Shown in pieces: positions 18,903 through 43,620 of a DNA stretch of 46,563 nt. The position numbers and the translations under genes are program-made. This stretch comes from Microcaldota archaeon. Lineage in GTDB: Archaea > Micrarchaeota > Micrarchaeia > Micrarchaeales > CABMGC01. The DNA is taken from positions 1-46,563 of the forward strand of contig JAKAUU010000030.1 in the NCBI GenBank assembly GCA_021817505.1, read 5' to 3'. The stretch's first letter is position 1. Each line of letters opens with the position of its first letter. Under the pieces are notes generated by a model, which had not been told where the DNA came from, ran no database searches, and saw nothing but the letters and a program-made list of their open reading frames with translations.

Positions 18903-18912
18903 AAACAATCAT

Positions 18913-21189
18913 CTACTTCCAACTATAAACACCTGCAGAGTATGCAACACTGAAAGGATTTTGAGATGCATAGTATTCTCCGACTCCAACGGATCCGAAT
19001 AGCCAGTTCACATCTGCCATGACTGGCGACCTGGCAATGCTTATGGAATATGAGCTTGAATATCCTGGAGATATGAAACCAGAATAAGCCGCAGTTACGA
19101 CATATGGAAATCCAGTGTTCCCATTGCCGCTGTAGTCGTTTGCATCGCCTGCCAGCGGCCACCATCCGACAAGTCCGTTAGATTGAATTGGAGAGGCAGT
19201 AATTCCCTGGTCATATAATGTTTTTATCTGTGCTTGGGTAAGCACTGTGCTATATATCTGCAGGTCGGCCATCTCCAAAGCAGAATAGCCGGGTTTAGCG
19301 CTGTTGGAGTAGTTCTCTCCGGAGCCAAGTATCAGTGCGCCAGTACCTGCAGCTGCAGGCCCGTTTGCAGCGGTTATACTGGCGGGATTCTGCACACCGT
19401 TGAGATAATAATACGCTTTCTGGCCAGGATAATCGTAAGTAAAGCATGCAAATACCCAGTTGTCAAGCATGCTGTTGAAGGTTACTGAATTTGCCTGCCC
19501 TGACGCGATATTCGCACCCGAAGGATTCCATACGGTGAATGATGGATGTATCTTCCCCCCATGGGTTCCAAACTGGTCCAGAGTGTATTCCCATGCGTTG
19601 CCATTGCTTGGCGCACCCTTTCCTTTTATCAGAGCTCCATTATACTCCGATAGGGAGGTTATCATATACCATGTGCATAGTGACATCTGTCCCGAAGAAC
19701 CTGCTTCGGGGCTTAAAGAGGTGCTGTTTCCAGCGTTAACATAGCTTTTATTGGTATTGAAATTCATCACATAAGGGAACATGACATTCTTTATGGGAGG
19801 ATATGTTGGTGATATGTTTGAAAATATTATAGATGCATTCTGGGCAGGATTTACTGATATTAACAGGTTGTCTGCGCAGCTTGATAGATAATTGGCATAA
19901 AATGATATCATGTTGGAAAGGAGGGATTTGCCAGAATTGCCAGGGCACGTGCCAAATACCAAAATCCTATGCTCTGTTGCCACATAAAGTTTGCCATAGG
20001 CAAGCATCATATACGGAGAAAACGGCCCGGAATATGGTATGTGCGTGATCCACTTAATATTTCCGTTATATGGATTCTGGTCCACTAAATAATCATTAGA
20101 CCACAACGTATACAGATTGCCATCTGAGGCTATAGGTTGCGCATCAGCGGGAGCATTTCCGACGTAAGCAGGCATCCGCACGGTCCAAGAACCGGATTCC
20201 ACAAACCCGTTTGCGGAAACATAGTTGGATGTGGATTGGGAAAACAGAGTATTGTTATATATAGATATGCTGGCTACCAATTGAGCGTCTGCCGCATAAG
20301 GCATTCCATTGAATGATGCTACCCGTGTTATTGGATATGGATATGCTTTGCTATACAGATTTATCGGGACGCCGGAATTGCTAAAGGAATATGCGACTAT
20401 TGTGTTTCCTATCCCTGCCGCAATAGTTCCAGATACCATTGCGATGGAATTTACCTCGCCTACTGTATTTATTGACCATGCTTCAGTGCCGTTATTAGAA
20501 TAAAAACCAAATATCCCTGTCTCAGCCGAGTTTCCAGCAGTGTATACGGGAACGAGGATCATGCTTCCGTAACCCACCATAGGCGCAGATACTATGCTCG
20601 AAGATGAAGGCAGTGCATTCCTGTTAATCCACCCGCTTGTTGAAACCAGAGTGGTGTTTGAAGCGTAGATCAGAGCACCGCCATATACCAGATCTGATGA
20701 AATCTCAGAAGGACTTTGACTCTGGTAGGTGCCTGCGGACAGTAATGGAGTTATGCTACTCTGAAGATATGTTTGGATTCCAATCAAAGCGCTGTGTGGA
20801 GCCACAGGACCGCTTGTGATATAGTATAAACGGCCATCTCCGGAAATAAGATTGATTCTGGATATAGGCTCGCTTGAGTTGATAACCGCAAGCAAACTGT
20901 CTGTATTCGGGCCATCGTTGTTGCTCGCGTAGCCGGCACTGGACTGATAAGCCTGGGGCCAGGTCTGGTTCTGTGCAGCATACTGCGCATTCATCTGCCC
21001 TGCAAGGGGAGAAGCCGTAAAGTTTCCCAGATTAGTATTGGAAAGGATAGATACAAGAGCGCTTATCGATGAAAAACCCTGGTTGTACTGGTTGGTAGGA
21101 GTATAATGGAAATAAAGCAGTATTGATATGGCAATTCCTGCTACCATAATTGCAAAAACGGCATCTATTGTGAATACCACTCCCTTCAT
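18913..21189 (-). CDS. Pilin-signal surface protein with beta-propeller-like and LamG-type domains
   Basis: 758 residues. It starts MKGVVFTIDAVFAIMVAGIA, a pilin-like N-terminus with an acidic residue inside the hydrophobic helix. Residues from about 180 to 420 contain repeated short beta blades with aromatic/Gly spacing (GIFGFYSNNGTEAWSINTVG, DGNLYTLWSNDYLVDQNP, GKLYVATEHRILVFGTC), resembling a PQQ-type beta-propeller. The C-terminal third is a LamG domain ending VGWWPLAGDANDYSGNGNTG. AAGGGTTAG precedes the ATG. It is the first gene of the minus-strand pair and is divergent from the 1135-residue LamG gene. Probably cell-surface. Confidence 0.8.
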   Translation of the reverse strand: MKGVVFTIDAVFAIMVAGIAISILLYFHYTPTNQYNQGFSSISALVSILSNTNLGNFTASPLAGQMNAQYAAQNQTWPQAYQSSAGYASNNDGPNTDSLLAVINSSEPISRINLISGDGRLYYITSGPVAPHSALIGIQTYLQSSITPLLSAGTYQSQSPSEISSDLVYGGALIYASNTTLVSTSGWINRNALPSSSSIVSAPMVGYGSMILVPVYTAGNSAETGIFGFYSNNGTEAWSINTVGEVNSIAMVSGTIAAGIGNTIVAYSFSNSGVPINLYSKAYPYPITRVASFNGMPYAADAQLVASISIYNNTLFSQSTSNYVSANGFVESGSWTVRMPAYVGNAPADAQPIASDGNLYTLWSNDYLVDQNPYNGNIKWITHIPYSGPFSPYMMLAYGKLYVATEHRILVFGTCPGNSGKSLLSNMISFYANYLSSCADNLLISVNPAQNASIIFSNISPTYPPIKNVMFPYVMNFNTNKSYVNAGNSTSLSPEAGSSGQMSLCTWYMITSLSEYNGALIKGKGAPSNGNAWEYTLDQFGTHGGKIHPSFTVWNPSGANIASGQANSVTFNSMLDNWVFACFTYDYPGQKAYYYLNGVQNPASITAANGPAAAGTGALILGSGENYSNSAKPGYSALEMADLQIYSTVLTQAQIKTLYDQGITASPIQSNGLVGWWPLAGDANDYSGNGNTGFPYVVTAAYSGFISPGYSSSYSISIARSPVMADVNWLFGSVGVGEYYASQNPFSVAYSAGVYSWK

Positions 21190-21370
21190 AACTAACCCTT
21201 TTCGCTGCAGTCTCGGGCATATACCCTACTTTGCAGCTATCTTCAATTAAATTAAATTCTTTTGACAATTTAAATATGTATCTGTGGTCAAAGCAGGATC
21301 CGATAAGTTAATCGGATGCGGCGCAACTAAATCTTTTTAAGCTGTGCCGACCACTATAGATTGCGTTGCG
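21190..21370. promoter_or_regulatory. Divergent promoter region of the LamG surface locus
   Basis: This 181-base spacer separates the two arms of the surface-protein locus. TATA-like stretches include TTAATTTAATTG-type sequence near 21245-21258 and TTTAAATA near 21270 for the minus-strand arm, and AAATCTTTTTAAG near 21329-21341 for the plus-strand arm. Closely opposed promoters suggest coordinated expression of both arms. Confidence 0.45.
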
Positions 21371-24300
21371 ATGGTAAGGGCCCAACTTTCGATAGATTTC
21401 ATAATAGTATTCTCGTTCGTGCTAATCATATTCGTGCTTATTTTCGGGTTAGTAGCCACGCAGCGAATACAGACCTCGCAACAGCAGGATTATGCGCAGC
21501 TGCAGGTTGTAGCCCAGTCCATTGCACAGGACATAAATACAGCGGCAAGTTCCGGCAGCGGATACTCCCAGAACCTGAGCCTGCCTTCAGGAACAGGATT
21601 AGTAAATTATAACATTTCCATAACCTCATCCGGAACCGTGGTGGTCTATGACAATTCTACCGGAAGATACGTCTATGCGTATGCGTACGCACCGGTGGGC
21701 AGAGTTATCTCTTCGCAGAGTTACGTCTCTGCCAATTCTCCGCATACATATATGCTCCCGGTAGCAAGCGGCACCATATACCTGCAGAATTCTGATGGGA
21801 ACATATGCATAGATTATGTGTGCAATACCACCACTTCACAGTCTTCTGGATTTACGGTATATACGAAGCTAACGCATGTTGCACAGATGAATGGACAGAA
21901 CAGTTATGCATATATGCAGAACTCGGTAAGCCTGCTCGCTCCGTTTAATGCAAATGCGATAACCATGTCCGCATGGGTGTACATAAACGAATTTCCTACA
22001 AACTCCATGATAATGCCTGTTGTCAATTATGGAACTTCACAGCAGGGAAGCTATTGTTTCGGGCCGAGGATATACGTATTGTCAAACAGCATATATGGAG
22101 GATTCCAGAACATAAATCGCGGCTCTTCAGAAGCATCTCTTCCCATAAAAAGCAAAACATGGTACTTTGTAGCATTCACATATTCGAAGAGCTCTAACCA
22201 GATTACGCTGTATGTGAACGGCAGGGAGACTATTGTCAATGCAGTTGTCCCTTTGGATCCTGCAGGAGATATATACAACCTGGTCTTTGGCACAACCGAC
22301 TATACCTATAATAGCGGACAGGGAGTATGTGAAAGTTCCGATCCGCTGAACGGCTCCATGGCCAATGTGCAGATATACAGCTCTGCCCTTAGCTCAAACC
22401 AGATATACGGCATTAAAAGCGGCGGGATAAACGGCGGCCCTGCAATAAGCCAGAACCTGTCAGGATGGTGGCCGCTGAACGGTAATGCGAACGATTACTC
22501 GGGAAACCTGAATAATGGAAGGGCTAGCGCGGTGCTTTATCCGGCAGTTGCGCAGATAAATGCCAATGTGACGAACACTACGCTCTCTCCGGTCAAAGGG
22601 GATCTTGTCGGCTTTTCATCAACGCTTGGGACATTTCAGGGAGGCGTTTCGTCAACATATAATATAACGAATAATAACGGGGTTGCAAGCGCCTTCCTCA
22701 TGCAGACAAACAATACAGGATATGCAACGGTAAAGGTGACTCCTTTCGAGGGAAACGTTTATACTGCAAAGAACCTGTCAGGATGGTGGCCGCTGAATGG
22801 GAATCAGGGAAACGTGCTTTTCAACCTCGCAAACAACACAGATGCCGGTTATCTGGAAAACGGATACTGGAATAACGTCAACTATGCAGGACTGTTTTCG
22901 GGATATGGTGGTTACGTAAGCGTCCCTAATTCGTCAAAAACAGAGTTATATAATGGACCACTTACACTTTCCTTTTGGATAAGCCCTTCGCAGGCCAACA
23001 AACTGGAATCAGTTGTATTTAAGCCAGATGAATATATCGCATGCGTTGGAAACGGCCGCATACGGTTAGACGATGGAAGTGACCATGGAGTCAATATCAA
23101 TTATAACCTTACCAACAACAAATGGTATAATATAGTGTTCACAGTATCTTCGACCAAAATAATAAACGTCTCGGTAAATGGAGAATGGGTAGGTTCTGTT
23201 GTAAATAATCAGTGGGCAGCGTCTGCAAATGTCCTGAATATGGCCATTGGATCGGAACAGAGCTACTCGGCAGGAAGCTGCTCAGGTGCAGGTTCTTTCG
23301 ATGGAAAGATAGCTAACGTGCAATTATATTCATATAGCATAAGTCCTGATAACATACAGCTATTGTATTCGGAAGGAATTGGAGGGTCTCCGATACCCAA
23401 TAGCAACAATGTTGGATGGTGGCCGCTGAACGGGAATACCAATGATTACAGCGGAAACGGTAATAATGGATTTGGAATAGGAAGTTTTAGTTTTGCTTCT
23501 CCAAACCAGAATATGTCCTATGTTGGAAATACGCACACTTTCGTCACAACCCAGTTTTTTGGAGGAGTACTTGGCAAATGGTCTAATATTACGGTAAATA
23601 CAATAAACAACTACCAGAACATACTAAACACAGGATCATTTACCATAACTGCATGGGTAAACCTGAACCAAACAGGAAATTACACCCTGGCAGGAGATTA
23701 TAAGCCAGGTAGCAACTCTGGTTTTATGTTTAGCGCGTGTGGTACTGCTTACTCTGGAACTAGTAGCCCTCCTCCTCATGCTGTGCTGATAGTGGCAGGA
23801 CAGAAGGTGCTAATGCCGTATGTAAATTCCACTGTAGGGAGCGGCTCGGTCCATAGCGGATACTTGTGTTTCCCGCCAAGCACATGGGAGATGATATCTG
23901 CTGAATATAACGGCAGCACAGGCGTAGCAACAGTATACCTAAACAACGAAGTCTATGCCACCAACACTTTAAGCCCAAGACTCGATCTTTCGCCATCGGA
24001 GATATTCAACATTGGTGGGATAGGCACGAATTTATTTGCAGGCCAGTATAGAGGATATATTTCCAATGTGCAGCTATACAGCAGTACGCTGTCCAGCGCA
24101 GATATCAACACATTGTATAAATCTGGCTTTTATGGCATGCCTCGTCCTAACGATGGGATTGTCGCATGGTGGCCGCTGAACGGGAATGCGAATGATTATA
24201 GCGGAAACGGGAATAACGGTTACAGTCATGGCACAGCATACACATACCTGCTGATACCGTCCCCGGTGCCTGGATTGGACAATTATGGCATTTCATCGAT

Positions 24301-24778
24301 AAATTCGGGAAATACTGCGATAATGACTCCTATAAGCTATCAACATTTCAGCATAGCTTCGTGGGTCTATCTCTCACAGCCAGTATCCAACTCTGGAATA
24401 TATCTTGGTACTCGTTTCTTAGGTTCAGGGTATGGGCTCTTTAGAAGTTCCTCAGAACATGGATTTTTAGTTGGCACTGGCAGTGCTGTTTCAAAGAACA
24501 TTACGATGTTTCCAATAGACAAATGGACATATGTAGTGGGGACATTTGACGGGAAGAATATAAGTTATTATGTAGACGGGACACTTGCTGCAAAGGGCAC
24601 ATCATCAGCTTCAGGCATGTCTTCAAACCCATTAATTGTAGGTCCTAACCTTGCAGGAAGTGTAGCCAACATAGAGTACTACAATACCTCCCTGACGCCA
24701 GGGCAGGTTTATCAGCTTTATGTCAATCAGCTTCCTGCTACGTATACTGAACAGATACCTTTGAGTTGGGGAACATGA
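21371..24778 (+). CDS. Giant pilin-signal surface protein with repeated LamG domains
   Basis: About 1135 residues. The N-terminus MVRAQLSIDFIIVFSFVLII matches archaeal class III (pilin-type) signals, with RAQLS-(I)DF around the predicted cleavage point. After about 150 residues come four LamG-type modules, each closing on a near-identical motif: SGWWPLNGNANDYSGNLNNG, SGWWPLNGNQGN, VGWWPLNGNTNDYSGNGNNG and VAWWPLNGNANDYSGNGNNG. LamG folds bind glycans or proteins. There are many potential N-glycosylation sites. The frame could start at GTG 21344, but the ATG at 21371 places the signal at the N-terminus. The stop overlaps the next start (ATGA). Confidence 0.85.
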   Translation: MVRAQLSIDFIIVFSFVLIIFVLIFGLVATQRIQTSQQQDYAQLQVVAQSIAQDINTAASSGSGYSQNLSLPSGTGLVNYNISITSSGTVVVYDNSTGRYVYAYAYAPVGRVISSQSYVSANSPHTYMLPVASGTIYLQNSDGNICIDYVCNTTTSQSSGFTVYTKLTHVAQMNGQNSYAYMQNSVSLLAPFNANAITMSAWVYINEFPTNSMIMPVVNYGTSQQGSYCFGPRIYVLSNSIYGGFQNINRGSSEASLPIKSKTWYFVAFTYSKSSNQITLYVNGRETIVNAVVPLDPAGDIYNLVFGTTDYTYNSGQGVCESSDPLNGSMANVQIYSSALSSNQIYGIKSGGINGGPAISQNLSGWWPLNGNANDYSGNLNNGRASAVLYPAVAQINANVTNTTLSPVKGDLVGFSSTLGTFQGGVSSTYNITNNNGVASAFLMQTNNTGYATVKVTPFEGNVYTAKNLSGWWPLNGNQGNVLFNLANNTDAGYLENGYWNNVNYAGLFSGYGGYVSVPNSSKTELYNGPLTLSFWISPSQANKLESVVFKPDEYIACVGNGRIRLDDGSDHGVNINYNLTNNKWYNIVFTVSSTKIINVSVNGEWVGSVVNNQWAASANVLNMAIGSEQSYSAGSCSGAGSFDGKIANVQLYSYSISPDNIQLLYSEGIGGSPIPNSNNVGWWPLNGNTNDYSGNGNNGFGIGSFSFASPNQNMSYVGNTHTFVTTQFFGGVLGKWSNITVNTINNYQNILNTGSFTITAWVNLNQTGNYTLAGDYKPGSNSGFMFSACGTAYSGTSSPPPHAVLIVAGQKVLMPYVNSTVGSGSVHSGYLCFPPSTWEMISAEYNGSTGVATVYLNNEVYATNTLSPRLDLSPSEIFNIGGIGTNLFAGQYRGYISNVQLYSSTLSSADINTLYKSGFYGMPRPNDGIVAWWPLNGNANDYSGNGNNGYSHGTAYTYLLIPSPVPGLDNYGISSINSGNTAIMTPISYQHFSIASWVYLSQPVSNSGIYLGTRFLGSGYGLFRSSSEHGFLVGTGSAVSKNITMFPIDKWTYVVGTFDGKNISYYVDGTLAAKGTSSASGMSSNPLIVGPNLAGSVANIEYYNTSLTPGQVYQLYVNQLPATYTEQIPLSWGT
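22463..24220 (+). repeat. Four LamG-motif DNA repeats within the giant surface gene
   Basis: The WWPLNGN coding segment recurs at 22463-22507, 22781-22801 (short), 23414-23470 and 24165-24220. All four keep TGGTGGCCGCTGAA and the third and fourth are close over 50 bases. The first two share the preceding CAGAACCTGTCAGGATGG-type sequence almost exactly. Reverse-strand copies lie in the two divergent genes at about 16318-16371 and 19120-19168. These could be recombination sites between the genes. Confidence 0.75.
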
Positions 24779-29216: not shown

Positions 29217-29241
29217 TTTGTTGAGATTAGTTTGTGTTTGG

Positions 29242-30519
29242 ATGGATGAAAGAATACCCCTTGTCATACACGGTTCCACAGGATCGATAGGCACGCAGAC
29301 CCTTGATGTTGTAAAGAGACTTCAGGGAAAGCGTGATTTCCGAGTATACGGCCTTGCATGCAACGGCAACATAGAGCTTCTTGAAAAACAGATAATTGAA
29401 TTTAAGCCCGACGTTGCAGTGGTTGTAGACGAGAATAAAGCCGAACAGCTGAAGCAGAAGCTTGACGGCAGAAGCATAAGGACCGAGGTGTTGGCTGGGG
29501 AGAAGGAAGCGATAAACCTATGCGATAGCATAAGCAACGGATATGTTGTGATAGCTACGGCGGGATTTGCAGGCCTGGCACCTACACTTGCAGCTATAGA
29601 AGCGGGAAATACGGTCCCGATAGCGAATAAGGAAGCCTTCCTTACGGCAGGCAGACTGATAACAGATTCTGCAAAGAAGCATAATGTAGAGATACTCCCT
29701 ATCGACAGCGAACCGAACGCGATATGGCAGACCTTGGAACCTGAGATATACCCAGATTCAGAAGCAAGGCATAGCGCAGTATGGCATATGCAGAGAGGCG
29801 CAAAGCACAATGTAGACAGTTTCATACTGACATGCTCAGGAGGGCCTTTCCGCGAATGGGACTCCGAAGCCCTGAAGAAAGCCACACTGCAGCAGGCGCT
29901 CAGGCATCCCAACTGGGATATGGGCAAACTGATAACGATACGCTCTGCTACCCTTATGAATAAAGGCATGGAGGTAATAGAGATTGCGTCCATATTCGGA
30001 GTTCCTGTCGACAAGGTGAAGATAGTGGTGCATCCGCAGAGCATAATCCATTCAGGCGTCGAGTTCATTGACGGGAGCCAGAAGGTTCAGCAGGGCCCGC
30101 ATGACATGAGATATCCGATAGCTTACTCGTTGACATTTCCGGATAGGATAGATACAGGGCTTAAGCGTCTCGAACTGGCATCGGTAGGCAGGTTTGATTT
30201 TGAGGAGCCGGATATGGAGCGCTTCCCAAGCATAGGATTGGCATACAGGGCAGGCAGGCTTGGCGGCACGGCACCTGCAGTGCTTAATGGAGCGGATGAG
30301 ACTGCTGTAGAGCTATTCTCAGAAGGCAGGATAGGCTTCACCCAGATGCCTGAGCTGATAAGGAGCGCCCTCGACGCCCACGTAGTAAAGCAGAACCCTA
30401 CGCTTGCAGAGATAATAACTGCCGATAGCTGGGCGAGGGATTATGTGAGAAAGGAATTCAATGAGAGTGTTTCAGCAAAGACCAAAGATACCAATGCAGG
30501 CAGAAAGCTGCGCAGATAG
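29242..30519 (+). CDS. dxr: 1-deoxy-D-xylulose 5-phosphate reductoisomerase
   Basis: About 425 residues. The enzyme converts DXP to 2-C-methyl-D-erythritol 4-phosphate with NADPH, the first committed step of the MEP isoprenoid pathway. Evidence: the NADPH loop HGSTGSIGTQTLDVV at the N-terminus, ANKEAFLTAG, the metal/substrate motif DSEPNA (Asp155, Glu157), SGGPFRE, ALRHPNWDMG, NKGMEVIE (Asn240, Lys241, Glu244), VVHPQSIIHS and a C-terminal helical domain. Two usually conserved positions differ: His in DSEHNA is Pro158, and Asp in T-x-D-SAT is Arg234. The ATG at 29242 is preferred over TTG 29218. Followed on the same strand by ispH and ispG. Confidence 0.92.
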   Translation: MDERIPLVIHGSTGSIGTQTLDVVKRLQGKRDFRVYGLACNGNIELLEKQIIEFKPDVAVVVDENKAEQLKQKLDGRSIRTEVLAGEKEAINLCDSISNGYVVIATAGFAGLAPTLAAIEAGNTVPIANKEAFLTAGRLITDSAKKHNVEILPIDSEPNAIWQTLEPEIYPDSEARHSAVWHMQRGAKHNVDSFILTCSGGPFREWDSEALKKATLQQALRHPNWDMGKLITIRSATLMNKGMEVIEIASIFGVPVDKVKIVVHPQSIIHSGVEFIDGSQKVQQGPHDMRYPIAYSLTFPDRIDTGLKRLELASVGRFDFEEPDMERFPSIGLAYRAGRLGGTAPAVLNGADETAVELFSEGRIGFTQMPELIRSALDAHVVKQNPTLAEIITADSWARDYVRKEFNESVSAKTKDTNAGRKLRR

Positions 30520-30574
30520 GCCATGCAGTATCGGGAAACAGCACATATTTCGTCATGTGCCACTGTTGGCATGC

Positions 30575-30663
30575 ACTTATAAATAGTTAACATAGATAGA
30601 TTTATTCAGAACAGTTTATGCCCCTGCGGATGCTGCAGGGAGTGGCGTTATCAAGGTATTATT
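30575..30663 (+). promoter_or_regulatory. ispH promoter and short 5' leader with a hairpin
   Basis: A TATA-like ACTTATAAATAGTT at 30575-30588 would start transcription near 30610, giving a leader of about 50 bases. CCCTGC at 30622-30627 pairs with GCAGGG at 30635-30640 around a seven-base loop. GGTATTATTATG marks the ribosome-binding region before the ATG at 30664. So ispH-ispG may be transcribed separately from dxr. Confidence 0.4.
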
Positions 30664-31611
30664 ATGAGCGTTGAGAGAGTGCTTCTTATAGAGCCAAGAG
30701 GATTCTGCGCAGGAGTGCAGCGTGCCGTCGATACTGTAGAAGAGGCTTTGGAGAATTTCGGTGCACCGATATATGTCAAGCATGAGATAGTGCACAACAA
30801 GACGGTTTGCGATGACCTGCGTGCAAAAGGTGCGATATTCATTGAGGAGATATCCGAAGTGCCTGAGGGAAGCATCTGCATCTTCTCAGCACATGGAATA
30901 GCTCCGCAGATAAGGGAGCAGGCCAGGGCCAGAAAGCTCTCTACGATAGATGCGACATGCCCGCTGGTTTCAAAGATACACATAGAGGTAGGCAGGTTCG
31001 CCAGGGAGGGCCTTGAGATAATATACATAGGGCACAGGAATCATCCTGAGGCGATAGGGGTCATGGGAATACGCCCGGACATAACCCAGATAGTCGAGAC
31101 TCCGGAAGAGGTCGGGAGCATCAATGTAAAGGATCCTTCCAAGCTTTCATATCTTACGCAGACGACGCTCTCTGTTGACGAGTGCCAGGGAGTCATAGAT
31201 GCACTTAAGAAGAGGTTCCCGCAGATGCGCGCCCCTCCTTCCTCGGACATATGCTATGCAACGACAAACAGGCAGGGTGCCGTTAAGAAAGCGGTTGAAC
31301 AGTGCGATGTGGTTATAGTTATAGGGAGCAGGAATTCTTCAAATTCAAACAGATTGGTGGATACGGCAAAACAGCTCGGAGTGGATGCGTATCTTATAGA
31401 CAGTGTAAGTGAGCTTAAGGAGGAGTGGGTCAAGGGCAAGAAGACATTGGGGATATCTGCAGGGGCGAGTGCTCCTGAATACCTTGTCCAGGAGCTTGCG
31501 CAGCACTTCAAGGAAAAGGGTGCTGTTGTCGAGAGCATGGAAGCCATAAAGGAGAATATGAAATTCACAATGCCTTATGAACTCAACAGACCTCTTTCAA
31601 GGAGTGCATGA
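30664..31611 (+). CDS. ispH: 4-hydroxy-3-methylbut-2-enyl diphosphate reductase (LytB)
   Basis: 315 residues, normal length. The last enzyme of the MEP pathway reduces HMBPP to IPP and DMAPP using a [4Fe-4S] cluster. All three cluster cysteines are present at Cys15 (PRGFCAGVQRAV), Cys99 (DATCPLVSKIH) and Cys197 (SDICYATTNRQ), close to the numbering in E. coli (12, 96, 197). Other hallmarks: KHEIVHNKTV, FSAHGIAP, GHRNHPEAIGVMG, TQTTLS and SRNSSNSNRL. The stop is four bases before the likely ispG start, so the two form an operon. It is bacterial in pathway affinity although the flanking genome is archaeal. Confidence 0.95.
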   Translation: MSVERVLLIEPRGFCAGVQRAVDTVEEALENFGAPIYVKHEIVHNKTVCDDLRAKGAIFIEEISEVPEGSICIFSAHGIAPQIREQARARKLSTIDATCPLVSKIHIEVGRFAREGLEIIYIGHRNHPEAIGVMGIRPDITQIVETPEEVGSINVKDPSKLSYLTQTTLSVDECQGVIDALKKRFPQMRAPPSSDICYATTNRQGAVKKAVEQCDVVIVIGSRNSSNSNRLVDTAKQLGVDAYLIDSVSELKEEWVKGKKTLGISAGASAPEYLVQELAQHFKEKGAVVESMEAIKENMKFTMPYELNRPLSRSA

Positions 31612-31615
31612 GAAT

Positions 31616-32869
31616 ATGGCAACAATAAGCATGGGAAAGGAGAGCGAGTGGGTACCTAGGAAGAAGACCCTTCAGGTAAGGGTAAGGAACATGCATATAG
31701 GCTCGGAGCATCCTGTAGCTGTTCAGAGCATGACCAATACCGACACCGGAGATGTCAATGCAACTGTAGCGCAGATAATAGAGTTACATAAGGCAGGCTC
31801 TGAACTCGTAAGATTCACTGTGCAGAACCTAAGGATGGCCCGCGCCGTTGCTGATATCAGAAAGACGCTTGACGACCTTGGATATGACGTGCCGCTTGTC
31901 GGAGACTTCCATTACAACGGGCATCAGCTTCTTAGGGAGGTGCCTTCATGCGCAGATGCTCTGGACAAGTACAGGATCAATCCGGGGAATGTGGGCTTCG
32001 GGGAGAAGCATGATGATAATTTCAAGTCCATACTCGAAGTGGCAAAGGATCATGACAAACCGGTAAGGATAGGCGTGAATTGGGGTTCTCTTGATCAGTC
32101 GGTACTGACCAAGATGATGGATGATAACAAGAGTTCTAAGAATCCTATGAGTGCAGATGATATCATGGTCTCTGCAGTCGTCGAGAGCGCCGTACAGTCT
32201 GTAAACAAGGCCATAGAATACGGGGTGGAGCCGAACAAGATAATAGTCAGCACAAAGATATCGGAGGTGTCAAAGATGGTGAAGGCATACCAGATGCTCT
32301 CCGAGAGGATAGAGCAGCCGCTGCACCTGGGCCTTACCGAGGCAGGGATAGGGAGCAAGGGCGTCGCAGCATCTTCGGCAGCACTCTCCCTCCTTCTTAC
32401 AAAGGGAATAGGCGATACCATACGCGTATCGTTGACGCCTACCCCGGGATCAAGCAGGGCTGAAGAGGTAAAGGTCTGCAGGCAGATACTGCAGGCACTG
32501 GACATAAGGCACTTTGTTCCTCTGGTCACCAGCTGCCCTGGCTGCGGAAGAACTACATCTACGACCTTCCAGGAGATGGCGGAGGACCTTAGCAGTTACC
32601 TTCAGGAGCGCATGCCTGAATGGAAGGGTGCGGGCTATGCTGGAGTGGAAGAGATGAAGGTTGCGGTTATGGGATGCGTGGTAAACGGCCCTGGAGAATC
32701 CAAGATGGCCCAGATAGGCATATCGCTTCCCGGAAGCGGGGAGAATCCGTCATGCCTGATATACGAGGATGGGAAGCAGGTGGCAGCGGTAAAGGCGGAT
32801 GTCGCGCGTGCGGAGTTCAAGAAGCATCTTGAGAACTACGTGACTACGCATTATTCAAAGAAGAAGTGA
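31616..32869 (+). CDS. ispG: 4-hydroxy-3-methylbut-2-en-1-yl diphosphate synthase (GcpE)
   Basis: About 417 residues. This MEP enzyme converts MEcPP to HMBPP with a [4Fe-4S] cluster. The TIM-barrel half has VAVQSMTNTDTGDVNAT, VGDFHYNG, RINPGNVG and HLGLTEAG; the cluster-binding half has SCPGCGRTT and MGCVVNGPGES, giving three cysteines plus Glu. It is the compact bacterial type without the plant/Chlamydia insertion. The frame is open to 31577, inside ispH, but the ATG at 31616 begins just after the ispH stop and is preferred. Converges with the dehydrogenase gene 15 bases downstream. Confidence 0.95.
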   Translation: MATISMGKESEWVPRKKTLQVRVRNMHIGSEHPVAVQSMTNTDTGDVNATVAQIIELHKAGSELVRFTVQNLRMARAVADIRKTLDDLGYDVPLVGDFHYNGHQLLREVPSCADALDKYRINPGNVGFGEKHDDNFKSILEVAKDHDKPVRIGVNWGSLDQSVLTKMMDDNKSSKNPMSADDIMVSAVVESAVQSVNKAIEYGVEPNKIIVSTKISEVSKMVKAYQMLSERIEQPLHLGLTEAGIGSKGVAASSAALSLLLTKGIGDTIRVSLTPTPGSSRAEEVKVCRQILQALDIRHFVPLVTSCPGCGRTTSTTFQEMAEDLSSYLQERMPEWKGAGYAGVEEMKVAVMGCVVNGPGESKMAQIGISLPGSGENPSCLIYEDGKQVAAVKADVARAEFKKHLENYVTTHYSKKK

Positions 32870-35292: not shown

Positions 35293-35517
35293 ATGATTAT
35301 TATGAGCAGGATAAAAAGGATGGATGTGTTGCAAAAAAGAAGCTCTTACGGGGTCGACGATGTTATGGATGACCTTGAGGATAGGAACAGTATATTTGAC
35401 GGTTCATTGAAGGACGCGCTAAGAGGGGTGCAGCATTCTGTTGTAAGGGACTCTGAAAGGGGCCGCCTGGGCTCTTTTAGTGTGAGAAGAGGTAAGCCAA
35501 AACCGCAGGTTAGGTAG
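35293..35517 (+). CDS. Small basic protein with LKDALRG motif, partner of zincin paralog 1
   Basis: 74 residues (70 if the ATG at 35305 is used). It contains GSLKDALRGVQHSVVRDS and a basic C-terminal tail. The same core, GLKDALRGLSHSLGRNS, occurs in the 50-codon gene at 37342-37494, which likewise precedes a zincin paralog. There is no signal peptide or membrane segment, and no known family is recognised. The stop lies 11 bases before the next gene, so the two are probably one operon. A TATA-like ACTTTTATAAATTA at about 35210-35223 suggests a leader of roughly 45-60 bases. A role as partner, inhibitor or substrate of the protease-like protein is a guess. Confidence 0.65.
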   Translation: MIIMSRIKRMDVLQKRSSYGVDDVMDDLEDRNSIFDGSLKDALRGVQHSVVRDSERGRLGSFSVRRGKPKPQVR

Positions 35518-35528
35518 CAACTGATTTT

Positions 35529-36392
35529 ATGCCGACTAGAACCAAGACATCTGCAGATAAGGCAGAGCCGCTGGAAAAGAGCAAGATCCTCTCTGTATCT
35601 TGTGAGATATCTGATGCCTATAGTGGAATATCCGGCAGGGAGCATAGCATGCCCAGGATAATAACACTGAGCAATGCTGTGGATCCTAAAAGCGATTATG
35701 GCCAGGTAGAAAGAGCAGAGTGCCTGGACATGCTACGCAGAGGCTATGATGGAGAGTACAAATACTCTGCAACAGAGGGAGGAAGAGTATTCGTAAACGA
35801 TTACGATGATTATTCAAGAGTAAAACAGACGCTCAGCCATGAGTTTGTGCACCATGTGAGAAGGGTCGGAGGCGCATCGAGTGAGTTTGATGCTGTTGAC
35901 TCTATCGGCATAACGAAACTGTCGGTAATAAGATCGCTGGAAGAGGGCTGTGCTGTCTTCATGCAGGGAGCATACTGCATGCAGGGCAGGAAGGATCCCG
36001 AGAGCGTCCTGGATGCGGTTTTCGAAGTATTCGACAGCAAAGCAATAGCGATGCTTCCCCAGACTTATAGGATGGTAAAGGAAGAAGGGATATCGGTAAG
36101 ATTCTCTTCGGAAGTTAGCAACGATGCGCTGGCAAGCATAATAGGCACGCATGGCAACATCTCATTCAATGAGAATAACTCGTTCAAGTCAAACCTCTAC
36201 TCTGCCGGGACCAGCTTTGCGGCAATCGTATATGCTGCGAACGAATTTGATTTTGATCTTACCGGTAAGAAGCTCCTCACCAACACATTCGATGAGTTGA
36301 AGAGGGAGCTTAGGGAGGCTGCCGGAAGAGCAGATGTTGAAGACGCCATAAACAGCATATCAAATAAGCTTAAGGATAAAAGGCAGTCGTGA
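35529..36392 (+). CDS. Zincin-like putative metalloprotease, paralog 1
   Basis: 287 residues. The zinc motif HEFVHH is at residues 104-109 and a conserved LEEGCAVF with Glu138/Glu139 follows about 30 residues later, the spacing of a gluzincin (HExxH plus distal Glu). The C-terminal FAAIVYAANEFDFDLTGKKLL block is shared with paralogs at 37563 and 39719. There is no signal peptide, so an intracellular protease or peptidase-like role is likely. The N-terminal 25 residues are polar and charged. It follows the small LKDALRG protein by 11 bases. The substrate is unknown, and activity itself is inferred from the motif. Confidence 0.78.
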   Translation: MPTRTKTSADKAEPLEKSKILSVSCEISDAYSGISGREHSMPRIITLSNAVDPKSDYGQVERAECLDMLRRGYDGEYKYSATEGGRVFVNDYDDYSRVKQTLSHEFVHHVRRVGGASSEFDAVDSIGITKLSVIRSLEEGCAVFMQGAYCMQGRKDPESVLDAVFEVFDSKAIAMLPQTYRMVKEEGISVRFSSEVSNDALASIIGTHGNISFNENNSFKSNLYSAGTSFAAIVYAANEFDFDLTGKKLLTNTFDELKRELREAAGRADVEDAINSISNKLKDKRQS

Positions 36393-36403
36393 TCCTGCAG
36401 ATT

Positions 36404-37219
36404 TCAGGCGCTCTTGTAGGAGCCCAGAATCTTCAGAAATATTGTTTCATTGCGCAGGCTTGACGTCGCTTTCCTTATCATTGCATCCTCTGCGCTTCCT
36501 TCACAGTCGAGATAGAAATTATACTGCCAGGGTTTCCCAGATATCGGCCGTGATTCTATGTGGATTATGTTCACCCCGTTATCTGCAAAACATTTAAGCA
36601 CATTGAAGAGTGAACCAGGCCGGTTCTTCAGGCCGAAAGCTATTGAGGTTTTGTCGCATTTGCCGATGCTGCCCTCTTTGCTTATTATCATAAACCTTGT
36701 GAAATTGCTCTTGTTAGACTGTATTGCTTTTGCAAGCACCTTCATTTTGTATAGCCTCGCTGCGCTCCGGCTGGCTATCGCGGCAGAATCATGAAGAGCA
36801 CTATCCCTTATCATTTTTACGCTTCCGGCGGTGTCATAATAAGGTATCGCATTGAACCTGTGCTTCTCCAGGTAACTGCGGCACTGTCCCAGAGCCTGCG
36901 GGTGAGAGTATACATTTTTTATATCGCGTATTTGTGTCCCTGGCTTTGCGATAAGGCAGTGCTCTATCCGCACTATCTCCTCTCCAAATATCTTAAGGTC
37001 GGATTCGAGAAGAAGGTCGTATGTCTGTGTAACTGGCCCTTCTGTAGAATTTTCTATCGGCACTACCCCGTAATCAGCATCCATCCTTACTGCCTCGAAG
37101 ACTTCCGGAAGAAACCTGAATCCAGTCAGCTTTCCTACCTTTCCGAAGTGCTGCATTGCAGCCTGCTCGCTGTATGACCCTCTCTCACCGTAATAGGCTA
37201 TCCTTTTGCGGTTCCCCAT
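36404..37219 (-). CDS. pheA: Prephenate dehydratase with ACT regulatory domain
   Basis: About 271 residues. The enzyme makes phenylpyruvate from prephenate in Phe synthesis. The catalytic domain shows YYGERGSYSEQAAMQHF, DYGVVPIENSTEGPV, YSHPQALGQC, DSAAIASRSAARLY and the NFTRF signature with its catalytic Thr. The C-terminal ACT domain (FGLKNRPGSLFNVLKCFADN then HIESRPISG) binds Phe for feedback control. It is monofunctional, without a chorismate mutase domain. The ATG at 37219 has GGT a few bases ahead; a TTG at 37228 is possible. It sits between two protease-like paralogs on the opposite strand and looks unrelated to them. Confidence 0.95.
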   Translation of the reverse strand: MGNRKRIAYYGERGSYSEQAAMQHFGKVGKLTGFRFLPEVFEAVRMDADYGVVPIENSTEGPVTQTYDLLLESDLKIFGEEIVRIEHCLIAKPGTQIRDIKNVYSHPQALGQCRSYLEKHRFNAIPYYDTAGSVKMIRDSALHDSAAIASRSAARLYKMKVLAKAIQSNKSNFTRFMIISKEGSIGKCDKTSIAFGLKNRPGSLFNVLKCFADNGVNIIHIESRPISGKPWQYNFYLDCEGSAEDAMIRKATSSLRNETIFLKILGSYKSA

Positions 37220-37341
37220 CAATACCAACAGTAAGTAGAGTTAAAGGTTAAACTATAAAAACCACATCGCCTTGTTGTTGTATATATGATAAGATTTCAA
37301 GTCTGTCATGCCTGTCGGAAGGTTTTCACGTCGCAAGCGGC

Positions 37342-37494
37342 ATGCTGGATGATCCCGGGCTGAAGGACGCCTTAAGGGGACTCAGCCACTCCTTAGGTAG
37401 GAATTCCTCAAAGAACAGCAGACAGACCTGGACAAAGAAGAGAAACACGGCAAAGTCGAACACTATGGTCAGGAAGGCACGCAATGTTTTCTAA
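37342..37494 (+). CDS. 50-residue basic protein with LKDALRG motif, partner of zincin paralog 2
   Basis: This gene is only 50 codons long. Its core GLKDALRGLSHSLGRNS matches GSLKDALRGVQHSVVRDS in the protein at 35293, and both end in a basic tail. It precedes zincin paralog 2 by 68 bases, the same order as its relative. No clear ribosome-binding site sits before the ATG at 37342, and the frame is open upstream without a start. It could therefore be a shorter form or a remnant whose N-terminus was lost by frameshift: an ATG at 37286 in another frame opens a short peptide that stops. Conservation of the motif argues that the protein part is real. Confidence 0.55.
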   Translation: MLDDPGLKDALRGLSHSLGRNSSKNSRQTWTKKRNTAKSNTMVRKARNVF

Positions 37495-37562
37495 TTGCAT
37501 TTTGGACATACGGCGGAAGCCCATCCATAGTATTATTAAGGATAAAATATAAATCATATACT

Positions 37563-38432
37563 ATGTTAAAATATATTGGAGAGACTGGCAGTCATGCTCG
37601 GCAGGCCTGCAAAGAAGACCTTCAACTCATCTCTGCGAAAGCGCTTGACTACTGCAACAGTACAAGCGGATTGCGCATAGGCACTCTTCCCGAGATAAGG
37701 TTTACCACAGACTTGGAAGGGGAGGTGCCGCGTCCCGGCTGGCTGCCCGGATGGTGCATTTCTGACAGGGAGAGGTTTAACTACAGCGCAGTATACCTTA
37801 CATATGCGAAGAAGATATTGATAAATGACCGCAATATTGGCAAGAACTGGGCGGAGAATGATATAGAAAGGCGCGTCTGCCATGAGCTGGTGCACTACAT
37901 CAGGGATATCAACGGCCTTTCTGGCAGGGTTGACATAGTTCCAAAGAACCCTGCGGAGCACAGGCTGATCCGTGTTTTTGAGTCGTTGGAGGAGAGCGGA
38001 CCGTTGTTCACCGAGGGAGTGTTCATGATGGATGGCAATACGCCAATTGGAGACGTAATAAGATCCCTTTATAATTATAAGAAAGATGCGAAGATGCCTC
38101 TTGAGACCTTGCGGGAGACGTATGAGATTGTCAGTACCGCCGATATGCTGTCCACTGGAAACAGGTTTGAGGACAACCTCTTTAACGTGATAGGCTTTTA
38201 CGGGATGGACAGAAGACTTAATGCGAACGACTGTTACCACTTTGCAGGGCTTAACTTCGCAGTGCTCATATATGCCTCTAACAACTTTGACCTGCAAAAG
38301 ACGGCAAAGAAGCTCATTACATATAGCTATGGCAGACTTGTACAGGAGCTGAAGGAGGCAGTGAGGCCTGACGTAAAGGCAGCGGCAGCAGAGATCTCAA
38401 GGATCGGATTGCAAGATAAAAGGTCCTCTTAG
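37563..38432 (+). CDS. Zincin-like putative metalloprotease, paralog 2
   Basis: 289 residues, about the same length as paralog 1. HELVHY is at residues 107-112 and LEES (not LEEGC) follows, with Glu143 in place of the distal Glu. The shared C-terminal block is FAVLIYASNNFDLQKTAKKLI. The start ATGTTAAAATATATTGG at 37563 follows A/T-rich TATA-like sequence with no ribosome-binding site, fitting a leaderless mRNA. The change from Gly-Cys-Ala to Ser-Gly-Pro after the LEE is the main difference from the other two. Upstream is the 50-residue LKDALRG protein. Intracellular; activity unproven. Confidence 0.76.
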   Translation: MLKYIGETGSHARQACKEDLQLISAKALDYCNSTSGLRIGTLPEIRFTTDLEGEVPRPGWLPGWCISDRERFNYSAVYLTYAKKILINDRNIGKNWAENDIERRVCHELVHYIRDINGLSGRVDIVPKNPAEHRLIRVFESLEESGPLFTEGVFMMDGNTPIGDVIRSLYNYKKDAKMPLETLRETYEIVSTADMLSTGNRFEDNLFNVIGFYGMDRRLNANDCYHFAGLNFAVLIYASNNFDLQKTAKKLITYSYGRLVQELKEAVRPDVKAAAAEISRIGLQDKRSS

Positions 38433-38478
38433 AATAATTTTAATTTTTTACCGGACGAGATTAATTTATAGTGATATA

Positions 38479-39015
38479 ATGGAAACAAAACAAAAGAGCA
38501 TGGAAACTAGGACCGGAGCGGTTCACAGAGAGTGGAGTGACAGGATGGATACGTTTAAGAATGCTGCAAGAGGGGCAGTAGTTGGCGCGGTAATCGCAGT
38601 CTCTGCGGCAGGATGTGCAACATACCAGCAGAACGGACAGCTGCTCGGCGGAGCACTTGGCGGAGTCATTGGAAGCCAGATAGGCCAGGGTGAAGGAAGG
38701 GCTGTAGCTACGATCGTAGGGACGCTAGCCGGTGCTTACATAGGAGGATCAATAGGCAGGAGCATGGACAGGCAGGACCAGATAAACGCGTACAATGCAA
38801 TAACGAGCAATCCTATAGGAAGGCCATCGTACTGGGCAAACCAGTATGGAAACAGGTACCAGGTTACGCCGACACAGCAGTATGTTCCACAGTATGGCCA
38901 GAACGCAGGACAGGTCTGCAGAAGCTATGTCACTACGGGCTTCATAGGGGGACAGGCACAGACGATTAAAGGAGTGGCATGCCAGCAGCCTGACGGAAGC
39001 TGGAAGATGGAGTGA
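38479..39015 (+). CDS. Predicted lipoprotein resembling bacterial 17-kDa surface antigen (glycine-zipper)
   Basis: 178 residues. After a polar N-terminal stretch of about 31 residues comes a hydrophobic Ala/Val segment ending in a lipobox-like AAGC at the cysteine of GCATYQQ. Next is a Gly-zipper segment (LLGGALGGVIGSQIGQGEGR, then AGAYIGGSIGRSMDRQDQ). The C-terminal block VCRSYVTTGFIGGQAQTIKG then ACQQPDGSWK matches the typical end of Rickettsia 17-kDa-antigen-like proteins. That family is bacterial, so transfer into this genome is suggested. The long pre-lipobox region is unusual. ATG 38479 is chosen from TATA spacing; 38545 is possible. It follows zincin paralog 2 closely. Confidence 0.75.
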   Translation: METKQKSMETRTGAVHREWSDRMDTFKNAARGAVVGAVIAVSAAGCATYQQNGQLLGGALGGVIGSQIGQGEGRAVATIVGTLAGAYIGGSIGRSMDRQDQINAYNAITSNPIGRPSYWANQYGNRYQVTPTQQYVPQYGQNAGQVCRSYVTTGFIGGQAQTIKGVACQQPDGSWKME

Positions 39016-39206
39016 TTTTCTCGGAGGGGGCTTTTGCCTCCTCCCTACAGCATATCTTCCCGGGAATATGCGATGGCATTTGCTGACACATAACGTATCG
39101 TATAAAGATGCGTATAAACGAGAAGTGCTTTCTTATCCTATTAGCCATATGTCGTATAAGGGAGAAATGTGTATTAAAGACGGATGCGTATTCTATTTGT
39201 GGTATT

Positions 39207-39677
39207 ATGGCAATGAAGACTTTTGTAACCAATGGTATTGCAACGCGCAATCAGCAGAAGACAGACACATCGTCAGGCACGCTGAAAGAGGCTATGAGGA
39301 AGACCGTGGTTGTCGGAGCGGCATTGGCAGCCACCGCAGGGCTGGCCGGCTGTGTGCCATTCCCTGGACAGATAGGCATGGTTGGCGGATATGTCGGGAG
39401 CGAGGTAACGTATGGTGAAGGAAACCCGTATTATATGTACCAGGAAGAGACACCTTACTATAACTATAATTATGGTGGAATACTGCCGTATTACAATTAC
39501 ATGAATACACCGGACTACGAGTACAGCGTGCCTGGCTACACTTATGGAGGAGGAATACTTAACTACAGCTACATAGGAAGGCCTGACTACGATTATGGCA
39601 GAGGTTACGGCGATATGCAGGGCCAGGAATTCGGAGACAGGGATGGCGGCGACATGTGGCACGAACGCCGAAGATAA
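39207..39677 (+). CDS. Predicted Tyr-rich lipoprotein
   Basis: About 156 residues. A polar N-terminal region of about 40 residues, as in the gene before it, precedes a hydrophobic segment (VVVGAALAATAGLAGC) ending in a lipobox with LAGC. The mature part is Tyr/Gly/Asn-rich with loose repeats (YYNYNYGGILPYYNY, YEYSVPGYTYGGGILNYSYI), likely an extended surface polypeptide. The start is ATG 39207, preceded by GGT; an ATG at 39108 lies far upstream. Together with the glycine-zipper gene it suggests a pair of surface lipoproteins bracketed by protease paralogs. Function unknown. Confidence 0.68.
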   Translation: MAMKTFVTNGIATRNQQKTDTSSGTLKEAMRKTVVVGAALAATAGLAGCVPFPGQIGMVGGYVGSEVTYGEGNPYYMYQEETPYYNYNYGGILPYYNYMNTPDYEYSVPGYTYGGGILNYSYIGRPDYDYGRGYGDMQGQEFGDRDGGDMWHERRR

Positions 39678-39718
39678 GTACTGCGGGAAAGCTGCATAGT
39701 GCGGAAAAAGATATTTGG

Positions 39719-40594
39719 ATGATAATTATGCAAAAGTTAGCTGATGCAGTACAGGCAAGACCGATAAATCCAAAGGAACTGCTGAGAACCGCTGCGGAAG
39801 ATGCTCTTGCTTACTACAATAAAGCCGCAGGAACACAGCATACTCCTCCAAAGATAATCCTGTTCAGCAACTTCAAGGAGTCTTCGGAGATGGACAAGTC
39901 CGTACTGAACAGCATGGACAAGATAGGGGCTGGAGGCACATATATCTTCAACAAGGTGTATCTCGATGACCGTGAGCTGTGGGCTGAACGGCCCACGCAG
40001 GATGGCATTGAGGTAACAAAAAGGAGCCTCAGCCATGAGATTGCCCATTACATAAGGGACAAAACAGGGGCCAGGAACCATCTCCTTGCTATGATCTTCC
40101 GCAAAAGCATGGGAACGGCAATCCGAACGCTTGAGGAAGGATGCGCAGTCTTTGTTGATGGGATATACCACTCCGGGGAGGGAGCCGGCCTGCCTAACAT
40201 AGTCAAGACAGTATATGACGATCCTGGCATACAGGCTCTCGCCGTACTCCCTGACCTCTATGATATAGTAAGCAATACGAATAGAAAATCTGTCTGCAGA
40301 TCAGGTTCCCCAGGCTTTGGTTATAAGGCAATCTCAAGGATAATCAATGACCATCAGATGATTTCTAGTATTATGAATGGCCATCAGGCACATCCGGACA
40401 GGGACCGCTGGTTTTATACCACAGGGACAAATCTTGCCATGATAGTGTATGCTGCAGATGACTTTAACACAGAGAAGACTGTAAAGAAACTGCTTACCCT
40501 TAATTATGATGGTTTTCTTGAAGAGCTCAAGCAAGCCATAAGGCCGGGCACAAAGGAAGCAATACGTCACATATGCAACAGTGCCAATGCGTAG
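39719..40594 (+). CDS. Zincin-like putative metalloprotease, paralog 3
   Basis: About 291 residues, the third member of the family. HEIAHY is at about residues 106-111 and LEEGCAVFVDGIY has its Glu at about residue 139, matching paralog 1. The shared C-terminal block is LAMIVYAADDFNTEKTVKKLL. ATGs at 39719 and 39728 are both in frame after GATGATAATT; the open frame to 39656 overlaps the lipoprotein gene and is less likely. Unlike the other two it has no LKDALRG-type small gene before it, but the lipoprotein gene. A 616-base spacer without a clear gene follows. Confidence 0.78.
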   Translation: MIIMQKLADAVQARPINPKELLRTAAEDALAYYNKAAGTQHTPPKIILFSNFKESSEMDKSVLNSMDKIGAGGTYIFNKVYLDDRELWAERPTQDGIEVTKRSLSHEIAHYIRDKTGARNHLLAMIFRKSMGTAIRTLEEGCAVFVDGIYHSGEGAGLPNIVKTVYDDPGIQALAVLPDLYDIVSNTNRKSVCRSGSPGFGYKAISRIINDHQMISSIMNGHQAHPDRDRWFYTTGTNLAMIVYAADDFNTEKTVKKLLTLNYDGFLEELKQAIRPGTKEAIRHICNSANA

Positions 40595-42541: not shown

Positions 42542-42973
42542 TTATTTCTCTTTGTAGCTGATTTCTGCTTTTGCCTCTGGGCTTTGCATACTCTGAACAG
42601 GTTTTTTACTTAATGGCCTCCTCACGGCAATTAATGGAATTGCCTTCGCATACCATCTGACATGCTCGCCTAGCCTCATGTTGAACAGACCGGCCTGGAC
42701 ACCCGTGCTTTCGGCAGTATCTGAATCCCTGCATACGTTCATCAGCAGGGAGAGCTGCACTCCCTTGAAGCTGTCAGCATCATTCGTGAGAAGGGCGAGC
42801 TGCAGCCCTTTCATCCTTCCCCATACTACGTTCTCAAAAACAGCAGCCTGTACGCCGTCCATATTTCCTATGAATTTATTCGATATCCTTGAGACCTGGG
42901 CTCCTCGCATATCTCCGAAGATAGTGTTCCTGTGCTGCGTTATATAAATGTCAATCGGCCCCTTTATCCTCAT
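42542..42973 (-). CDS. Repeat protein with G-V-Q-x-x-L-x-N units (LA_2272-like)
   Basis: 143 residues. Most of it is built from repeats of about 16-20 residues with G-x-Q-x-(A/S)-x-(L/F)-x-N: MDGVQAAVFENVVWGR, MKGLQLALLTNDADS, FKGVQLSLLMNVCRDS, STGVQAGLFNMRLG. This is the pattern of LA_2272-type surface repeats in Leptospira and other bacteria. No signal peptide is visible, so localisation is uncertain. The ATG at 42973 lies eight bases after the stop of the bactofilin-like gene; it is the third gene of an operon. Confidence 0.68.
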   Translation of the reverse strand: MRIKGPIDIYITQHRNTIFGDMRGAQVSRISNKFIGNMDGVQAAVFENVVWGRMKGLQLALLTNDADSFKGVQLSLLMNVCRDSDTAESTGVQAGLFNMRLGEHVRWYAKAIPLIAVRRPLSKKPVQSMQSPEAKAEISYKEK

Positions 42974-42981
42974 ATCATCCC

Positions 42982-43620
42982 CTACTCTCTCTTCTCATTG
43001 TATATGTCGCTCTTGATGTTGATCTCTTCCGCAGATATGAATGGCAGCCTGCTGCCCTTTAGCACAGGGTATGCATGCCTATATCTAAGCTCTCTCCTTG
43101 CATGGCAGATCATATAGTAATAGAGGTCTCTCGCATTTATGCTGTCCTTTGCCTCTATGTTCCTCGCATATACATCAGTATCTGCCGACAGGCTCCCTAC
43201 AAGAATGTCTTTAGCTTTTATGCTTTTCATCGAGAACAGATAGTCTGCGCTGATGTCTCCTTTAGCGTCGATCTTCTGCACAGTTATCTCATCTGCTGTC
43301 AGGTTATTCACTGAGACGACGTCTCCCATGAGCTCTCTCGTCAATGATACATTGTTTGCATGGAGGTTCCTGACTTCCATGCTTATCGCCCTGACGTTTC
43401 CTGAGAGCTCCAGATTCTTGAGCCCTACATTTCTCGCCGTAAGATCCCCGGATATCTCAAGGCTGAATCCCTTCCCATCGTGGCCGAATACGTCTCCAAG
43501 TACCACTACATTTCCAGCAAGCCTTGTGTTCTTATAAAGAACAAGATCGCCGTTTATGACCACGGGATCTGCGGCGCCGGATTCCGCAGCCTTTGCACTA
43601 GGTGCTTTTTTCGAGAACAT
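42982..43620 (-). CDS. Bactofilin-like (polymer-forming) beta-solenoid protein
   Basis: 212 residues. After a short Lys/Ala-rich leader come many short strands at five- to six-residue period (GDLVLYKNTRLAGNVVVLGD, SLEISGDLTARNVGLKNLEL and so on to DVYARNIEAKDSINARDLYY), the pattern of the bactofilin/DUF342-like right-handed beta-helix that forms filaments. The C-terminal tail of 40 residues is basic and not solenoid. It follows the 98-residue gene by three bases and precedes the repeat protein by eight, an operon. A cytoskeletal or envelope scaffold role is suggested by the fold only. Confidence 0.72.
   Translation of the reverse strand: MFSKKAPSAKAAESGAADPVVINGDLVLYKNTRLAGNVVVLGDVFGHDGKGFSLEISGDLTARNVGLKNLELSGNVRAISMEVRNLHANNVSLTRELMGDVVSVNNLTADEITVQKIDAKGDISADYLFSMKSIKAKDILVGSLSADTDVYARNIEAKDSINARDLYYYMICHARRELRYRHAYPVLKGSRLPFISAEEINIKSDIYNEKRE

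Follow-up and report, generated by a model that had tools for sequence, protein, structure and literature searches.

Three predicted gluzincin-type peptidase paralogs and a genus-specific small protein at a locus in a Micrarchaeota genome

The described peptidases that come closest to the proteins discussed here are the M9 collagenases, the minigluzincins and the Peptidase_M78 (ImmA-IrrE) proteins. M9 collagenases (ColG, ColH, ColT), which are secreted and combine several domains, among them an activator domain, carry, like the family described below, an HExxH motif followed about 30 residues on by EEGxA. Minigluzincins (MJ1213/selecase, proabylysin, projannalysin) are small archaeal gluzincin cores of about 110 aa with almost no C-terminal subdomain, and they resemble the present family in a strand and the HExxH helix.

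We analysed a window of 46,563 nucleotides (the whole stretch of DNA under study), contig 34 of a Micrarchaeota genome of 839 kb that is 84% complete and whose nearest relatives in the named genome collection searched are the Candidatus Micrarchaeota MAGs DAHUYR01, DAHXNY01 and JAJZKU01. An archaeal EF-1A and a deoxyhypusine synthase are encoded in the window, consistent with an archaeal host. An original prediction, made from the letters of the sequence, had described an island of three zincin paralogs, two small basic proteins and two lipoproteins, and all of these genes were found at the coordinates given below. Our overall reading, which we consider probable, is that the zincins (Z1, Z2 and Z3) are cytosolic gluzincins of a fast-evolving family, that the small protein (SP, with copies SP1 and SP2) is a genus-specific accessory, and that the lipoproteins are mere neighbours.

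The zincins and known gluzincin families

The zincins lie on the plus strand as Z1 (35529..36392, 287 aa), Z2 (37563..38432, 289 aa) and Z3 (39719..40594, 291 aa); as predicted, they are paralogs of about 290 residues that are homologous across their full length, with Z2 and Z3 26–30% identical to Z1. The Z3 frame is open already from a GTG at 39656, and the start common to Z3 and its ortholog lies at about 39719. Invariant among the three (Z1 numbering) are H104, E105, H108, E139, G227 and F240. The HExxH motif expected near residues 104–111 is thus present throughout (H104-E105-F-V-H108 in Z1, HELVH in Z2, HEIAH in Z3); the glutamate of LEE (LEEG in Z1 and Z3), the putative third ligand and E139 in Z1, which had been placed about 30 residues downstream, follows at a distance of 35 (Z1), 37 (Z2) and 34 (Z3) residues; and G227 and F240 form part of the C-terminal block noted in the original prediction. 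HExxH and the downstream Glu are also present in all five congeneric proteins, and among 39 aligned members of the wider family HExxH is intact in 36 and the third-ligand Glu in 38. Two family members from one other genus (G029, L078:5996-7204; G063, L079:6584-7759) read RPxxH/Y in place of HExxH and are probably inactive paralogs.

An AlphaFold2 model of Z1 built with five relatives reached a pLDDT of 82 and a pTM of 0.84 (a model from three sequences gave a pLDDT of 52, and the fold search on it was set aside). Strands at residues 75–80 and 84–89 are followed by a helix at 95–113 that carries HExxH and a helix at 128–149 that carries the Glu, which is the order seen in gluzincins. Against a viral structure library the top matches of this model were zincins (M34-like, M61, IrrE, SprT) at a probability of 0.99–1.00, although these matches were weak (E >0.001, TM ~0.4); in the PDB no solved structure matched at E <0.001, and the nearest zincins there were ACE/ACE2-type gluzincins at a TM of only ~0.4. 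The zincin assignment nevertheless held up: the conserved motifs, the Z1 model with its weak zincin matches and profile matches to solved gluzincins together support Z1–Z3 as predicted gluzincins of the zincin fold class.

Those profile matches extend to the catalytic domains of ColG, ColT and ColH (best E 1.1e-5) and to the archaeal minigluzincins MJ1213, proabylysin and projannalysin (E 1e-4 to 4e-3), and in each case the likeness is partial. The match to the M9 enzymes is limited to a core of about 90–140 residues with no extension beyond, and the curated cut-off of PF01752 (M9) is not reached over the catalytic domain: 2 of the 39 family members match this model (best E 0.0015), none of them a window zincin. 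In contrast to the M9 collagenases, each of Z1–Z3 consists of one domain (about 290 aa) and lacks a signal peptide. The match to the minigluzincins spans only about 35–75 positions, and the family, at 280–291 aa with a conserved C-terminal block, departs from their minimal domain. Peptidase_M78 / IrrE (PF06114) gives a sub-threshold match around HExxH (E 0.047, 13.9 bits versus a cut-off of 22), but its C-terminal block is not the same, and no HTH repressor partner of the ImmA-IrrE type lies beside Z1–Z3, whose neighbours are SP1 and SP2, pheA, a UPF0047-domain gene and the lipoproteins. No Pfam or NCBIfam model reached its cut-off for the window zincins. None of the eight congeneric zincins (Z1–Z3 included) has a hydrophobic N-terminus, such as an M9-type secretion signal, or a transmembrane segment, so a cytosolic location of Z1–Z3 seems likely.

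We place these proteins among the gluzincin peptidases, a known kind, as a family that seems not to have been described. In keeping with this, it is absent from the Pfam and NCBIfam models and from the titles and abstract openings of the literature covered, which included few subscription papers, on Micrarchaeota metallopeptidases or proteases and on archaeal gluzincins. By analogy of motifs, Z1–Z3 are predicted to bind zinc and to be catalytic: the metal would be held by both His of HExxH and by the Glu 34–37 residues on, the Glu of HExxH would activate water, and a C-terminal helical subdomain would close the cleft. A role for the zincin as a component of a defence system was rejected, as one distant member alone gave a weak KwaB match.

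Distribution and divergence of the zincins

With a broad profile and a presence threshold of E <1e-5, the family was found in 61 of 164 genomes of the order versus 9 of 137 elsewhere in the phylum, counts in which the weakest matches may be other zincins. Scans of genome contigs and viral contigs with single proteins and with alignments found relatives in three congeneric MAGs only and in no virus. Members frequently stand in tandem, as in G009, G056, G105 and G122. The neighbourhoods of the zincins are unrelated across genomes, with no recurrent neighbour outside the genus. Within it, the Z1 orthologs of G002, G003 and G005 occupy one slot, from the UPF0047-domain gene to pheA, and the Z3 ortholog of G001 lies, like Z3 itself, downstream of two lipoproteins.

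In the tree the Z1 orthologs group at 86/96 and the Z3 orthologs at 91/99, while Z2 is a long branch without firm placement. Because the Z1 and Z3 lineages split before the species do, the duplications predate the species, and we ruled out recent tandem duplication as the origin of Z1–Z3. Compared with its counterparts in related genomes, Z1 of the window is 37–50% identical and SP 29–33%, versus 86–89% for ispG and ispH, which puts the zincins and the small protein among the fastest-changing of the genes examined at the locus. Such fast divergence of the zincins could reflect relaxed constraint. It is plausible that the family, widespread in one Micrarchaeota order, diversifies through duplication and loss, and that three old paralogs have been gathered here in a gene-gain slot flanked by conserved housekeeping genes. 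An undescribed, fast-evolving peptidase family is in this way added to organisms with genomes of ~0.8–1 Mb, in which three paralogs are costly, and this suggests a selected role. At present the value of the family lies mainly in the annotation gap that it marks, as neither Pfam nor NCBIfam holds a model for it.

The small protein, the lipoproteins and their relation to the zincins

SP1 (35302..35517, plus strand) is a protein of 71 aa with a pI of about 10 and a GSLKDALRG core, encoded 11 nt upstream of Z1. Its frame is open from an ATG at 35293, and the ATG at 35302 (MSRIKR) is the start kept in relatives; the homologs in G002, G003 and G005 start with MSRIK or MSRTQ and have the same ALR-x-x-NHS core. 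SP2 (37342..37494, plus strand; 50 aa), encoded 68 nt upstream of Z2, is by sequence comparison a copy truncated at the N-terminus: it is shorter than all of its relatives, and the conserved MSRIK N-terminus has been lost through net indels (relative to the G003 gene). Across the family the pI ranges from 9.8 to 11.7 and the tail is rich in Lys and Arg. The LKDALRG core is identical between SP1 and SP2 at 7 of 7 residues, while 5 of the 7 codons differ, all synonymously (TTG/CTG, GCG/GCC, CTA/TTA, AGA/AGG and GGG/GGA, with AAG and GAC unchanged), a pattern that directly attests coding and selection at the protein level. SP2 scores 63 in alignment with SP1 and 142 with the G003 protein, against a mean of 12 (sd 5) for shuffled sequences; the SP1–SP2 score is so far above the shuffles that the resemblance is not due to chance. 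The two small basic proteins predicted in front of zincins on the strength of a GLKDALRG core are therefore homologous and placed as described, except that SP2 has lost its N-terminus. Homologs of SP occur in only 4 of the 162 genomes of the order, all of one genus; the remaining genomes of the order, in which zincins are common, lack it. Pfam and the PDB yielded nothing convincing (top PDB match eS24, E 0.07). LKDALRG was also considered as an n-region motif of lipoproteins (compare TFKNAARG, TLKEAMRK), a reading that was rejected since in the SPs the core is followed by neither a hydrophobic stretch nor a lipobox; we treat the likeness as chance or as a convergent amphipathic motif.

The lipoproteins are a Gly-zipper protein of the 17 kDa antigen type (38479..39015, plus strand; PF13488, E 4.5e-9; lipobox AAGC), which passes the cut-offs of both PF13488 and PF05433, and a Tyr-rich protein (39213..39677, plus strand; lipobox LAGC). 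Their N-terminal halves are homologous (a long n-region ending in FKxxxRG, an h-region, the lipobox and a Gly-zipper) and their C-termini differ. The Gly-zipper protein belongs to the same Pfam families as the 17 kDa surface-antigen lipoproteins, here in an archaeon and, within the order, in this genus alone, across which it is 70–86% identical. Of the 6 genomes of the genus, 5 encode both lipoproteins, and no genome of the order outside the genus encodes either. The two lipoproteins assigned to the island are thus real, but they also occur apart from zincins: in G002 and G005 no zincin adjoins the pair, and in G003 its two genes lie on different contigs. They are neighbours, a separate gene pair outside any protease unit.

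The arrangement had been read as a repeated gene order and a functional unit of protease and dedicated partner or substrate. A pheA-type prephenate dehydratase gene with an ACT domain (36404..37228; PF00800, E 3e-64) lies on the minus strand between SP1–Z1 and SP2–Z2, and the island is therefore not one operon or transcription unit. For SP and Z1 the evidence is divided. SP lies 11–30 nt upstream of a Z1-type zincin in three genomes (G000, G002, G005), and this, together with the position of SP2 before Z2, the homology of SP1 and SP2 and the fast divergence of both SP and Z1, would fit a dedicated zincin substrate or inhibitor, toxin-antitoxin-like, whose ALRxxNHS helix sits in the active-site groove and whose gene was duplicated with that of the zincin as a unit. 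SP is also present in all four congeneric genomes with a Z1-type zincin and in neither of the two without, a contrast that rests on six genomes and has little power, and the MAGs are incomplete. The coupling is broken in G003, however, where SP is flanked by a SWIM-like protein and by the Gly-zipper lipoprotein (~106 nt from the latter) with no zincin between, and where Z1 is on another contig with no SP upstream. Z3 likewise has no SP next to it, nor do the G001 and G004 zincins, and outside the genus there is none despite abundant zincins. Moreover, SP2 has 26/45 residues in common with the orphan SP of G003 but only 14/42 with SP1, which does not point to a simple duplication of an SP–zincin pair. 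With the G003 copy as its closest relative, SP2 seems to have belonged to the Gly-zipper slot independently of Z2; the loss of its N-terminus also speaks against such a pair. We consider this explanation unlikely. A protease with a dedicated peptide partner is accordingly weakly supported in general, and a direct partner role for SP appears quite unlikely. Much the same holds for an SP that acts in trans, as an inhibitor, activator or substrate co-evolving with Micrarchaeota-specific cytosolic gluzincins in an undescribed archaeal protease–regulator pair; it is conceivable because SP and the Z1-type zincins occur within the genus in one and the same set of four genomes, but we doubt it.

Alternatively, SP may function on its own as a small basic protein that perhaps binds nucleic acid; it would share an accessory slot with the zincins, its adjacency to them being historical. 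The basic pI and Lys/Arg-rich tail, the company that SP keeps in G003 and the occupation of the slot by other genus-specific genes in other genomes are in keeping with this, yet the close co-directional spacing is repeated before two different zincin paralogs, the co-occurrence with Z1, though small, is perfect, and SP matches no nucleic-acid-binding family; we hold it to be a somewhat unlikely alternative. A third proposal joins the zincins to the lipoproteins in a system at the cell surface for processing proteins of a host or neighbour, and would thereby account for the rapid divergence of the zincins in a probable symbiont. Lipoproteins with clear lipoboxes do adjoin Z2 and Z3, but no close zincin has a secretion signal or transmembrane segment, and the lipoprotein pair is kept without a neighbouring zincin in two genomes while the Gly-zipper gene of G003 stands apart from one, so that we find this very improbable. 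Under our preferred reading of SP as a genus-specific accessory, SP may be co-transcribed with Z1 in several species, to judge from tight co-directional spacing, and would most likely modulate Z1-type enzymes or act in their pathway, though not as an obligate partner in cis. Should it prove to be a regulator, the two would constitute an archaeal protease-control pair.

Other genes in the slot and the window

In G002, three tandem paralogs of 160–169 aa (L019:5376-6960; METKRIGRVAL..., MVSTWQY...), with a SWIM-like protein adjacent, occupy the slot that separates pheA from the lipoproteins. Elsewhere in the window, a tandem of dxr-, ispH- and ispG-like genes (29218-32869, named from sequence) belongs to the bacterial MEP isoprenoid pathway, here in an archaeon; most MEP genes are reported to have been horizontally acquired by Micrarchaeales and other orders (PMC12892359). 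Proteins that resemble bactofilins in their VxGD/ISAD repeats are encoded at 42542-43620, and homologs occupy the corresponding position in G001, G003 and G005. Finally, in the region 15633-24778 a 758-aa protein with no Pfam match is flanked by two very large proteins (1091 and 1144 aa) of the Laminin_G_3, concanavalin-like type, which are possibly surface proteins.
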